Assembly: GCA_018698135.1 (NCBI GenBank)
Contig: JABINZ010000161.1
Location: 1-62,725 of the forward strand
Reading direction: 5' to 3'
Length of the DNA: 62,725 bases
Source of the DNA: Bacteroidota bacterium
GTDB taxonomy: Bacteria; Bacteroidota; Bacteroidia; CAILMK01; JAAYUY01
In this document: positions 29,879-33,291 of the stretch, piece by piece
Numbering within the stretch: position 1 is the stretch's first letter
How the letters are laid out: each line of letters opens with the position of its first letter
Translations under genes and position numbers: made by a program
The notes under the pieces: model-generated
The model's database searches: none
The model's input: only the letters and a program-made list of their open reading frames with translations
Told to the model about the DNA's origin: nothing

Positions 29879-30103
29879 ACATTATCTGCTTATTATCTCA
29901 ACATTAGCACAATTATCCATTCTCAATTGGCATTCAAATTTCACAGGATTTTCCACTTTCATTTGTCTTTATTCCTTACATCAAAACTGCTGTAATTCTT
30001 AGCAGTCAAAAAACATTTTGCAAATTTTATAATCTAAATATTTGGTTATCTAAAATGTATATTGTATATTGTAATAACATTTGAAAATCAAAAAAACAAT
30101 GCT

Positions 30104-30523
30104 ATGGAAATGAATTACTTATGTCCGCATTGCAGGGCACAGCTCAAAATCGATAATGAGCTAATTCTCACCATTAAATCTCACAAAACTAAACACAATG
30201 GACTTTTAATTTTAGACCCGCAGGTAGGTAATTATTCGCTGCGTTATCACGAAACCATTGATTTTGAGAAAGGGGAGGAATTCGATATTTATTGTCCTAT
30301 CTGTTTTAAAGAATTGAAAGCAAAAAAGGTAAATCCGAAGCTTCTTTATCTGATTATGCAAAATAAGCAAGGAGAGGAATTTGAAATATATTTTTCAAGA
30401 ATATTTGGAGAGCATTCAACTTTTGTTTTAAGTCATGATAATATAATTGAAAGGAAAGGAGAAGATGCATCAACTTACTACAATTATTTCTCAGCTAGAC
30501 TAAAACAAGCTATCAATTCATAA
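30104..30523 (+). CDS. Small protein with two CxxC knuckles (zinc-ribbon-like)
   Basis: About 139 residues from the ATG at 30104; a longer TTG start at 30062 is less likely. The first knuckle, NYLCPHCRAQL, is at the N-terminus and the second, IYCPICFKEL, about 50 residues later; together they could bind one zinc. The C-terminal half is alpha/beta with no recognised motif. No signal peptide, so cytoplasmic. Possibly a nucleic-acid or ribosome-associated zinc protein, but no family is recognised. Confidence 0.65.
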   Translation: MEMNYLCPHCRAQLKIDNELILTIKSHKTKHNGLLILDPQVGNYSLRYHETIDFEKGEEFDIYCPICFKELKAKKVNPKLLYLIMQNKQGEEFEIYFSRIFGEHSTFVLSHDNIIERKGEDASTYYNYFSARLKQAINS

Positions 30524-30658
30524 CATATTTTGATTTTTTTAGCCCAAATAACATCATAAGGACTTAATAATCTGGTGTTTATTAAGAACAATCAACAATA
30601 TTCAAAGCTGATTCACACTAATTAGAATATACTTCTATTAAGATTATTTCTAAATTAC

Positions 30659-30689
30659 TTTGAATTTCTTTTAAACATCTCTATATTCG
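30659..30689 (+). promoter_or_regulatory. Candidate promoter of the EGKCG lipoprotein
   Basis: TTTG at 30659-30662, a 19-bp spacer, then TATATTCG at 30682-30689 (one mismatch to TAnnTTTG). The spacing suits the Bacteroidota sigma-ABfr promoter. The ATG is at 30719. Confidence 0.5.
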
Positions 30690-30718: not shown

Positions 30719-31018
30719 ATGAAAAAACAATTCAGAAATCTATTCGCATTCCTTGCAGTTTTTGCAATGGTTGCATTTACTACTTCTATAATGACATCTT
30801 GCGATAATGCAGATGAAGATGCTACTGAAGAAACAATAGAAGACGCTGACGCAGAAGCTGATGTTGAAGCAGTTGCTGAAGAAGAAGCCAAATGTGGTGA
30901 AGGTAAATGCGGAGAAGGCAAATGTGGAGAAGGTGATGCTGATGTAGCTCCAGAAGGTGAAGTTACTGAAGAAGCAGAAGCCAAGTGTGGTGAAGGTAAA
31001 TGTGGAGAAGGCGAATAA
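30719..31018 (+). CDS. Small acidic lipoprotein with five EGKCG-type motifs (HvfA-like)
   Basis: 99 residues. Signal and lipobox: a hydrophobic stretch to residue 23, then SIMTSC with Cys28 as the lipidation site. Then an acidic linker and two clusters of a five-residue Cys repeat: AKCGEGKCGEGKCGEG (57-72; Cys59, 64, 69) and AKCGEGKCGEGE (88-99; Cys90, 95). EGKCG is the motif modified in HvfA-type peptides by DUF692/MNIO enzymes with a DUF2063 partner, giving copper-binding products. No such enzyme gene is in the window, so modification is unproven. It has its own promoter and terminator, so it is transcribed alone. The alternative is an unmodified metal-binding or thiol-buffering lipoprotein. 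Confidence 0.8.
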   Translation: MKKQFRNLFAFLAVFAMVAFTTSIMTSCDNADEDATEETIEDADAEADVEAVAEEEAKCGEGKCGEGKCGEGDADVAPEGEVTEEAEAKCGEGKCGEGE

Positions 31019-31040
31019 AAATTCTTAATCCAGAATAATA

Positions 31041-31069
31041 AAAACTGAGCTAGTTCTCAGTTTTTTTTT
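31041..31069 (+). terminator. Terminator, probably bidirectional
   Basis: AAAACTGAG-CTAGTT-CTCAGTTTT followed by further T bases. It lies 22 bp after the EGKCG gene. The A-run on the left could also serve the convergent GMC oxidoreductase gene. Confidence 0.85.
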
Positions 31070-31076
31070 GCTCTCT

Positions 31077-32750
31077 TCACAGGCTGGATTTAATAATATC
31101 AGCTACTCTAAATGAATTTGCATAAATTGTCCATGTATACGTTACACTACCTCCTGTTGGCATAAAGCTGCCATCTGTTACAAATACGTTTTCAGCATCA
31201 TGTAGCTGACAATTTTTGTTCAAAACCGAAAATTTCGGATTATCTCCAAACCTACACCCTCCTGCCATTAAGTTCGGTGGTGGAGAACCACTGATGCTGG
31301 AAGTAATATTCCGAGCACCCATCTCTTTTAAAAGTAACTCACTTTTTTCTGCCAGATATTTTCCAACTTTAATATCATGTTCATGATTTCCAATCCGAAC
31401 TTTTGCCACTGGCAACCCCCATTTATCCTTCACTTTTGGATCAAGTGATACAAAACAATCATCAGTCGGCAGCCAATCATTGAATACTTCAAACTGCAAT
31501 TGCTTCATTTCATTAAAACGAAACTCGAGTTTATCTTTCAATTCCTGACCCCATACTAATTTACCCTGATCTCCATACTTAAGTTTATTTGCTTTTCGAA
31601 TTGGATTAGGATGCTCATGTAAAAAATCTACGGTTCCACCCTTTATCCGGCCTAATTTTGGATCATCAATTACATACCAATCCTGCAAAGCTCTGTTCAC
31701 AAATGGCCCTCGTGTTTGTAACTCTTTAACCTGTGATTCAGTAAAATCCTTGAAATAAAAATCACCTCTGCCAATTCCTCCTGCCGAAAAGATAAGATTC
31801 TTCCCAACTTGTCCTGAATTATTTCCCAAACCATTTTTGTGCTTTGGCCCTACAGACATGAGCAATAGTCTACTCGATTCTATTGCTTGACAAGCTACCA
31901 CAAACGCTTTCGCATGTACTTTTTGAACAATTCCCTCTTTATCAAAATATTCAAGTTCTGTTACTTTTCCACTAGAATCTGAAACAAGTTTGTAGGCCAT
32001 TGAGTGAGGTCTGATTTCACAATTTCCTGTTCTAAATGCCACATCCAAGAGTGCAGCACGTGAACTTCCTTTTGCTCCTGAATTACATCCATAACTACCA
32101 CAAAACACAGAATAATAACAAGCGTTTCGCTGATTATGTGCTTTCGTTAAAATGGCTCTTGGCATAGGGAATGGATGATAACCCAATCTTTTAGACGACT
32201 CATCAATCCAATTAGCAAAAGGATGATCTATCATTGAAGGAAATGGAAAGTCTTTGGTTGAGCGTGGCTCCTGTGAAGGATGATTAACTACTTTACCAGA
32301 AATCCCAACAATTTCTTCAACCTTAGCAAAATAAGGCTCCATTTCTTCATAGGAAACTGGCCAATCTACCACATTTGCACCTTCAATTGCACCAAATTCA
32401 GAAAGCAGCTTGAAATCAACAGGTTTCATCCGATGAAAATAGCCACTCATAAAATTGGAGGAACCTCCTACAATATTCCCATTCCAAAAACTTCCACCTG
32501 ATATTGCATTTGATTCTGCTTTCCACTTTCCTTTAATAAAATCTTCAATTACGTGAGGTTCATCTTCTAATTTAGGCACATAATGGTCTCTTCTACATGT
32601 TCCTATCTCATCTTTAGAAAAATCCTGTTCATTATACCAGCCCCCTTTCTCGATAACAACAACACTTTTACCAGTCATTGCCATTTCATAAGCAATAGGT
32701 CCTGCTCCTGCCCCACTTCCAATTATGCAAACATCAAAGTATTTACTCAT
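31077..32750 (-). CDS. GMC-family FAD oxidoreductase
   Basis: 557 residues. The FAD-binding Rossmann motif CIIGSGAGAGPIAYEMA is at the N-terminus with VVVIEKGG; the second GMC signature is near GGSFWNGNIVGGSSNFM. The C-terminal catalytic region contains FVTDGSFMPTGGSVTYTWTIYANSFRVAD. Such enzymes oxidise alcohols or sugars such as gluconate. Its start lies 8 bp inside the upstream subunit-3-like gene, so the two proteins very likely form a complex. The flavoprotein itself has no signal peptide; export would depend on the partner. No cytochrome c gene, the usual third component, is adjacent. The sugar substrate is not predictable. Confidence 0.92.
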   Translation of the reverse strand: MSKYFDVCIIGSGAGAGPIAYEMAMTGKSVVVIEKGGWYNEQDFSKDEIGTCRRDHYVPKLEDEPHVIEDFIKGKWKAESNAISGGSFWNGNIVGGSSNFMSGYFHRMKPVDFKLLSEFGAIEGANVVDWPVSYEEMEPYFAKVEEIVGISGKVVNHPSQEPRSTKDFPFPSMIDHPFANWIDESSKRLGYHPFPMPRAILTKAHNQRNACYYSVFCGSYGCNSGAKGSSRAALLDVAFRTGNCEIRPHSMAYKLVSDSSGKVTELEYFDKEGIVQKVHAKAFVVACQAIESSRLLLMSVGPKHKNGLGNNSGQVGKNLIFSAGGIGRGDFYFKDFTESQVKELQTRGPFVNRALQDWYVIDDPKLGRIKGGTVDFLHEHPNPIRKANKLKYGDQGKLVWGQELKDKLEFRFNEMKQLQFEVFNDWLPTDDCFVSLDPKVKDKWGLPVAKVRIGNHEHDIKVGKYLAEKSELLLKEMGARNITSSISGSPPPNLMAGGCRFGDNPKFSVLNKNCQLHDAENVFVTDGSFMPTGGSVTYTWTIYANSFRVADIIKSSL

Positions 32751-33291
32751 TGGGCTTGTATTTATTCATTAAACTTGGTCTCGGATTTCCGGGAATATGA
32801 TGAAGCCATTTCCAGCCTTTTTGATCATCGTTTATTTGATAAATAGGATCACCCAGCATTGCTTCAAAAGTGTATGTCAATAGCAAAGACAAAAACTTCT
32901 TTCCCTTTTTAAACGTTTCCATTTCTCGCAATACTTCCTCAATGTTCATATTTTGCAGTTCTCTACACTCTTTATCAAAAAGCCTTTTAGATACATCATC
33001 AGCCCATCGAATACCATTCTTTATGGTTTGCTTTTGAGATGATTTTATTGTATTGTCTGTCAAGACAGATTTGATATGAGTTAATGCTGAAATAGAATTG
33101 GCTCCAGGAGAATTTTCATTTTCAGGTAACAATAGATTTAATATCCGATTCAAAGTCAATAATTCTTCATCAGAAAGATTATAATTTCCGAGATGAAGTA
33201 TCCGTTTACAAGCGGAAATTGGCAACTGTATAATAACAGCTAACAAACTGATATAATAAACAAAACGCCTTCTGCTAATACTATGGTTCAC
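32743..33291 (-). CDS. Gluconate 2-dehydrogenase subunit 3-like protein with Tat/lipoprotein-type leader
   Basis: 182 residues. The leader MNHSISRRRFVYYISLLAVI has a twin-arginine-like SRRRF and ends in LPISAC, so Cys28 may be lipidated. The mature part fits the small subunit of membrane-bound GMC dehydrogenases (LSDEELLTLNRILNLLLPE near the N-terminus, FLSLLLTYTFEAMLGDPIY near the end). In such complexes the small subunit accompanies the flavoprotein across the membrane. It overlaps the GMC gene by 8 bp and is divergent from the citrate lyase genes. Confidence 0.85.
   Translation of the reverse strand: MNHSISRRRFVYYISLLAVIIQLPISACKRILHLGNYNLSDEELLTLNRILNLLLPENENSPGANSISALTHIKSVLTDNTIKSSQKQTIKNGIRWADDVSKRLFDKECRELQNMNIEEVLREMETFKKGKKFLSLLLTYTFEAMLGDPIYQINDDQKGWKWLHHIPGNPRPSLMNKYKPNE

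Follow-up and report, generated by a model that had tools for sequence, protein, structure and literature searches.

EGKCG repeats are treated as the signature of copper-binding RiPPs made by MNIO enzymes, and an NCBI domain model names in this way a protein encoded in the window (the whole stretch of DNA analysed, 62,725 nucleotides; its genome is labelled G000 and that of a congener G001). The question raised by this locus is whether the repeat is enough to predict a modified peptide. The first-pass annotation had left two readings, an enzyme acting on the protein from elsewhere or an unmodified surface metal or thiol buffer.

The repeat lipoprotein and its gene

The gene (30719..31018, forward strand) encodes an acidic EGKCG-repeat lipoprotein of 99 aa and has a syntenic orthologue in G001, which keeps it in the same place with the same neighbours. 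A signal peptide (residues 1-27) and a lipobox at Cys28 (MTSC, followed by DNADED; 30719..30802, forward strand) were recognised from the sequence with a regular expression, and the lipobox is conserved in the G001 orthologue by sequence comparison (MTSC, followed by NEAKDD). The mature lipoprotein is 39% Asp/Glu, with a net charge of -23 and six Cys counting that of the lipobox. Five cysteines at 5-residue spacing, an acidic linker and a lipobox had been annotated and are all present, but the five KCGEG units that follow the linker do not form one run, being split into a first block of three, KCGEGKCGEGKCGEG (Cys59, 64 and 69; 30890..30934, forward strand), and a second of two, KCGEGKCGEG (Cys90 and 95; 30983..31012, forward strand). 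The protein scores 32.3 bits against NCBIfam NF050137 (cut-off 19.5), whose name is 'HvfA family oxazolone/thioamide-modified RiPP metallophore', so that the resemblance to HvfA-type substrates proposed in the annotation is formally real; against the HvfA equivalog NF050188 it scores 25.4 bits, under the cut-off of 95.

A promoter and a terminator of its own, likewise annotated, are borne out by a promoter-like element and a 10-pair terminator, both conserved in the congener. The promoter-like element, TTTG-N19-TATATTCG (30659..30689, forward strand), was read from the sequence, is presumably of the Bacteroidota -33/-7 type and is mostly conserved in G001, where the -7 element is TAAATTTG. The intrinsic terminator (31040..31074, forward strand, with the stem listed on the reverse strand too) consists of the stem, which is the part conserved in G001, and a T tract. 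Upstream of the promoter-like element, positions 30630-30659 (TTCTATTAAGATTATTTCTAAATTA) are strongly conserved in G001, possibly as a site for a regulator. Shortly before the lipoprotein gene, positions 30062-30523 encode a small protein containing two CxxC motifs, for which there is no counterpart among the ORFs of at least 90 aa listed at the G001 locus.

Over 25 aligned repeat codons, G000 and G001 differ by 10 synonymous and 0 nonsynonymous changes, and over the 54 codons preceding the repeats by 19.7 synonymous and 30.3 nonsynonymous changes. The repeat alignment is not unique, but the zero nonsynonymous count is independent of the alignment chosen because the repeat peptides are identical. 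In G001 the five repeats form one uninterrupted array, which means a change of arrangement at a constant count of five. The KCGEGKCG DNA pattern occurs three times in the window against 0 of 100 dinucleotide shuffles, and the reversed pattern was matched in 0 of 395 class genomes; together with the lack of nonsynonymous repeat changes, these counts rule out chance or low complexity as the source of the repeat. Purifying selection thus maintains the EGKCG repeats in a genus in which no MNIO was detected.

MNIO genes and the two kinds of KCGEGKCG genomes

The statement that the window holds no DUF692/MNIO enzyme or DUF2063 partner is correct and extends to the whole draft of G000 (4.23 Mb, 287 contigs, 96.95% complete), in which MNIO/DUF692 (PF05114) and DUF2063 (PF09836) each gave 0 matches. 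PF05114 also gave 0 matches in the draft of G001, and control genomes were matched in both PF05114 searches. An MNIO hidden elsewhere in the genome was rejected on the 0 PF05114 matches in G000 and G001, and a DUF2063 partner elsewhere on the 0 PF09836 matches in G000, so that an enzyme acting from elsewhere is unlikely inside this cell. This genome check had been proposed with the annotation, and its outcome supplies one half, the absence of a DUF692 gene, of what was named there as refuting a RiPP, the other half being mass spectra with unmodified cysteines. As in lipidated RiPPs (DAG-RiPPs), the window protein carries an SPII signal and lipobox (MTSC, from sequence and regular expression); a modifying enzyme encoded with the precursor was not found, MNIO having been sought in G000 with 0 matches. 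Inspection by eye revealed no post-signal stretch of the LGSGAELR kind in the window protein.

Of 395 class genomes, 29 contain the exact KCGEGKCG DNA pattern; PF05114 was matched in 19 of these and not in the other 10. In a phylum draw, also of 395 genomes, 8 contain the pattern, the sample being even but small and composed mostly of drafts. Six of the phylum matches lie outside the class sample (G064, G075, G091, G136, G163 and G414) and PF05114 is present in all six, which gives an MNIO-positive set of 25 genomes (19 class and 6 phylum). In 24 of these 25 genomes, 75-314 bases separate the MNIO match from the KCGEGKCG motif. In G163 (L097, G163:C77) the KCGEGKCG protein and the MNIO are on separate contigs, the sole such case. 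The substrates are lipobox-free in 25/25 genomes; no convincing lipobox occurs among the 26 MNIO-linked proteins, the single regular-expression match (L046) falling in an over-long N-terminus, and a leader-like post-signal motif of the LGSGAELR kind is present in 23 of the 26 by a strict regular expression. In seven MNIO-positive loci viewed by eye, the substrate gene precedes the MNIO and then a DUF2063-like protein; beyond these lies a DoxX-like gene in 6/7, and a sigma-factor-like gene is found upstream in 6/7.

Among MNIO-free genomes, KCGEGKCG in an acidic chain belongs to a lipoprotein in eight of eight (G000, G001, G028, G458, G488, G514, G614 and G621), a count that leaves out G517 and G670 from the 10 MNIO-free class genomes. 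The motif of G517 lies in no open frame. G670 (77% complete) encodes a lipobox-free KCGEG protein (L090:2210-2581) with a convergent ORF as its downstream neighbour, and has neither an MNIO nor a GMC oxidoreductase of the kind described below. G621 (single contig, 97% complete), where MNIO gave no match, encodes three repeat proteins; besides its lipoprotein there is a lipobox-free repeat protein (L079). A rule set beforehand, that a lipoprotein without a leader goes with no MNIO, was applied to new phylum genomes; three were returned, all lipobox-free and all MNIO-positive, so only one arm of the rule was probed.

Several further Cys-rich proteins were seen in these genomes. G621 encodes, one after the other, a lipoprotein with 21 Cys and KCGEGKCG repeats at its end (L078:6220-6756) and another exported protein rich in Cys (L078:6955-7257), both of metallothionein-like look. 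G514 (L084:9974-10354) and G488 (L086:1472-1900), which also have an acidic repeat lipoprotein, each encode a Cys-rich, lipobox-free exported protein built of a CTCDECKGKDGKCKPDCKC core and a tail of the KCGEGKCG type. In G614 (L081; G614:C4, ~85423-85445) a KCGxxKCG array lies in no open frame and apparently the same repeat occurs upstream in another frame, possibly as the result of a frameshift.

The neighbouring GMC dehydrogenase genes

The lipoprotein gene had been called an orphan that stands alone. A convergent GMC/Gluconate_2-dh3 pair (31077-33291) was overlooked, and the lipoprotein class co-occurs with, and often adjoins, GMC. The lipoprotein and GMC genes are tail to tail, 58 bases apart. 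The GMC oxidoreductase (31077..32750, reverse strand; PF05199 60.9 bits and PF00732 45.8 bits, both over cut-off) is related to the catalytic (alpha) subunits of exported FAD dehydrogenase complexes, and its best PDB relatives are FAD glucose dehydrogenase (6a2u and 8hdd; E 2.4e-36 for 6a2u, from B. cepacia) and fructose dehydrogenase (7w2j). The GMC start is overlapped by 8 bases by the gene for a Gluconate_2-dh3 (gamma, 'hitchhiker') subunit whose N-terminus resembles a twin-arginine signal (32743..33291, reverse strand; PF13618 49.4 bits, cut-off 23.4). Three cysteines (Cys211/217/222) are found in 10/10 GMC orthologues, with a spacing (x5, x4) one residue off that of B. cepacia GDH (x5, x3; Cys212/218/222, 3Fe-4S). 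As described in PMC6719666, the B. cepacia FAD-GDH has a catalytic subunit with 3Fe-4S on Cys212/218/222 and a Tat hitchhiker, and passes electrons to a membrane-bound subunit with three haem c groups. ORFs of at least 60 aa with CxxCH were absent from the window and from stretches L020, L079, L082 and L123 around the adjacent loci, and no membrane-bound multihaem cytochrome c was found in any of these; the Cys-repeat lipoprotein gene occupies a place where a cytochrome gene might be expected. An arrangement like that of the classical complex was seen in G400 (L128:5749-8908), where a distant GMC (31% identity) is preceded by a small Tat-like gene and followed by one for a protein with seven CxxCH motifs.

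GMC orthologues were sought in 295 class genomes with the window GMC protein as query (E <= 1e-60), which returned 12 matches, 10 of them with at least 43% identity. All eight MNIO-free genomes with the acidic lipoprotein are among these 10, the orthologues of the seven other than G000 being 51-79% identical to the window GMC; the remaining two are G564 and G539. The latter has a GMC of 43% identity and no Cys lipoprotein at that locus. No orthologue was found in the 25 MNIO-positive genomes or in G670 and G517 (27 genomes searched), with a distant GMC in G075 (27% identity) and short weak matches in G136 and G414 counted as non-orthologous. The difference between MNIO-free lipoprotein and MNIO-positive genomes (8/8 against 0/25) gives a Fisher p of 7e-8 at the genome level, which ignores relatedness; the safer figure is that by family (5/5 against 0/9, p 5e-4), in which f8 stands on both sides, and with G517 and G670 kept as misses (8/10 against 0/25) p is 2e-6.

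Five genomes (G000, G001, G614, G621 and G564), belonging to four families, have GMC and Gluconate_2-dh3 genes beside a gene for a Cys-repeat exported protein. The arrangements are of three types, with convergent genes in family f1, divergent ones in f37 and a shared strand in f8 and f23. The lipoprotein gene is convergent with GMC in G000 and G001, and in G614 it is divergent from Gluconate_2-dh3 at 92 bases. In G621 the repeat protein, Gluconate_2-dh3 and GMC genes follow in a row on one strand, and the repeat protein adjoining GMC is without a lipobox. G564 encodes an acidic lipoprotein ending in ACEEGACEAGACEGGDHEH, directly upstream of Gluconate_2-dh3 and GMC on the same strand, which has the same architecture and Cys spacing but the repeat CEEGACEAGAC, not EGKCG. 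GMC and repeat genes are on different contigs in four of the eight lipoprotein genomes (G028, G458, G488 and G514). Gluconate_2-dh3 stands beside GMC in G000, G001, G614, G621, G028 and G564, over the Pfam cut-offs in the loci scanned, and was not seen next to GMC in G488 and G458. That the GMC link reflects nothing more than inherited synteny is made less likely by the order and orientation of the genes, which vary between families.

Possible roles of the lipoprotein

The preferred reading, which we hold to be evenly balanced between right and wrong, is that the window protein belongs to a class of MNIO-independent, exported, acidic Cys-repeat lipoproteins that are not MNIO-matured RiPPs and work with an exported GMC flavodehydrogenase. 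Members of the class would be exported, mostly lipid-anchored, acidic proteins with CxxxxC repeats, usually KCGEG. The window lipoprotein would be exported by Sec, lipidated on Cys28 and anchored in the outer membrane; acidic residues follow Cys28, with no exact match to a published surface-export consensus, and Bacteroidetes surface export signals are acidic as well (PMC5080379). The GMC catalytic subunit and the Gluconate_2-dh3 hitchhiker would form a two-subunit dehydrogenase exported by Tat. The unmodified repeat thiolates would bind a soft metal, most likely Cu(I) by analogy, and copper binding is reported for modified EGKCG peptides (PMC13097082). The lipoprotein would be the membrane-anchored metal-thiolate partner of the dehydrogenase, in the genetic place of the multihaem cytochrome (beta subunit), and may act as anchor, electron acceptor or metal supplier. 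MNIO was not found, the repeats are under selection, and co-occurrence and repeated adjacency link them to dehydrogenase genes, which suggests an unrecognised partnership between an EGKCG lipoprotein and an exported flavin dehydrogenase; part of the co-occurrence could come from shared niche or ancestry. Further points that tell against this reading are the four lipoprotein genomes with GMC and repeat genes on different contigs, the GMC genes of G488 and G458 with no Gluconate_2-dh3 seen beside them, the G539 locus, the repeat protein of G670, the lipobox-free neighbour of GMC in G621 and the one-residue difference in GMC Cys spacing from B. cepacia GDH.

A free-standing, metallothionein-like buffer of the envelope, in which unmodified KCGEG thiolates at the outer membrane take up copper, further soft metals or oxidants while GMC is linked merely by shared regulation, niche or ancestry, seems to us rather unlikely. 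It agrees with a monocistronic gene that has its own promoter and terminator, with the same repeat at the end of Cys-rich metallothionein-like proteins in MNIO-free genomes (G621 L078, with 21 Cys; G488 L086; G514 L084), with the histidines that accompany the repeat in G614, G621 and G564, and with the unlinked GMC in 4/8 genomes, but that this one GMC/Gluconate_2-dh3 pair adjoins the repeat gene in four families whose gene orders differ, and that the co-occurrence is 8/8 against 0/25, goes beyond what a generic buffer would lead one to expect. The unmodified surface buffer of the first-pass annotation still fits better than its enzyme elsewhere, and misleads where it has the protein standing alone, since GMC co-occurs and often adjoins. 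The exported GMC flavoenzyme might itself be the modifying enzyme, replacing MNIO and oxidising the EGKCG cysteines outside the cytoplasm, which would accord with a motif near-identical in MNIO substrates and MNIO-free lipoproteins and with the lack of any genome having both MNIO and this GMC among the 35 with the repeat in which the two were sought (neither was found in G517 and G670). This we regard as decidedly improbable: the partner repeat in G564 is CEEGACEAGAC, so that the common feature is the Cys spacing and not EGKCG, the GMC resembles sugar dehydrogenases, and peptide modification is not known from any GMC enzyme. Very slight is the chance that the protein is a lipidated oxazolin (a DAG-RiPP of the NedA kind) and that the draft assembly failed to capture its MNIO gene. 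Lipidated EGKCG RiPPs exist (NedA, PMC12636315), the repeat protein and MNIO of G163 are on different contigs, and G000 is 96.95% complete in 287 contigs, but PF05114 is absent from both genus members and six further genomes, including the single-contig G621 (97%), MNIO lies within ~0.3 kb of the repeat in 24/25 MNIO-positive genomes, and the window protein is without the post-signal motif of MNIO-linked proteins.

The MNIO substrates HvfA/oxazolin, fontiphorin and Buf_EGKCG (captophorin) are like the window protein in having repeated EGKCG with a Cys every five residues, in being exported and in scoring over the NF050137 cut-off; the window protein differs from them as an acidic lipoprotein with no leader-like motif, in a genome without detected MNIO or DUF2063, and with an NF050188 score far under the cut-off. 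NedA, the lipidated oxazolin of Neisseria dentiae, shares the lipoprotein signal and the EGKCG repeats, and is described as modified by the MNIO NedB with its partner NedC, losing 4 Da per motif (PMC12636315), whereas an enzyme of the NedB or NedC type was not found in the genome of the window. Of the 5-mer substrates tested in vitro, those in which a charged residue follows Cys were not processed by the MNIO complex FonBC (PMC13097082). In the G564 repeat each Cys is followed by Glu, so that a FonBC-like enzyme would be unlikely to accept it. Direct-electron-transfer FAD dehydrogenases (6a2u, 7w2j) likewise have a GMC catalytic subunit, with a Cys cluster near 211-222, and a PF13618 hitchhiker, but their third component is a membrane-bound multihaem cytochrome c and the third at this locus is a Cys-repeat lipoprotein. 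Bacterial metallothioneins, by analogy, are also Cys-dense chains with likely metal-thiolate chemistry, in contrast to which the window protein is lipid-anchored outside the cytoplasm and has regular CxxxxC spacing and an acidic linker.

EGKCG precursors without MNIO and lipidated EGKCG RiPPs with MNIO are already in print (PMC12452194 and PMC12636315), the former counting Buf_EGKCG without MNIO in 67 of 2583 surveyed genomes and leaving the matter open. In the literature searched, subscription papers being outside its scope, no link was found between EGKCG proteins, MNIO or, among the matches listed, bufferins and GMC dehydrogenases, and no report of a GMC oxidoreductase with gluconate 2-dehydrogenase subunit 3 under Bacteroid- terms. 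What is new here is the MNIO-free, lipoprotein, dehydrogenase-linked form of the EGKCG protein. A wider proposal, that in some Bacteroidota a Tat-exported GMC flavoenzyme takes the place of the cytosolic MNIO and has lipid-anchored EGKCG peptides as its substrates or as its electron conduit, is doubtful; if true, it would mean either MNIO-independent modification of EGKCG cysteines or a three-part dehydrogenase with a metal-thiolate lipoprotein as electron acceptor instead of a cytochrome. Selection maintains this repeat although no MNIO was detected, so that the EGKCG signature alone does not predict modification; for the MNIO-free EGKCG orphans of the sampled class there is now a shared architecture and a candidate for the partner, and the question of their role becomes testable.
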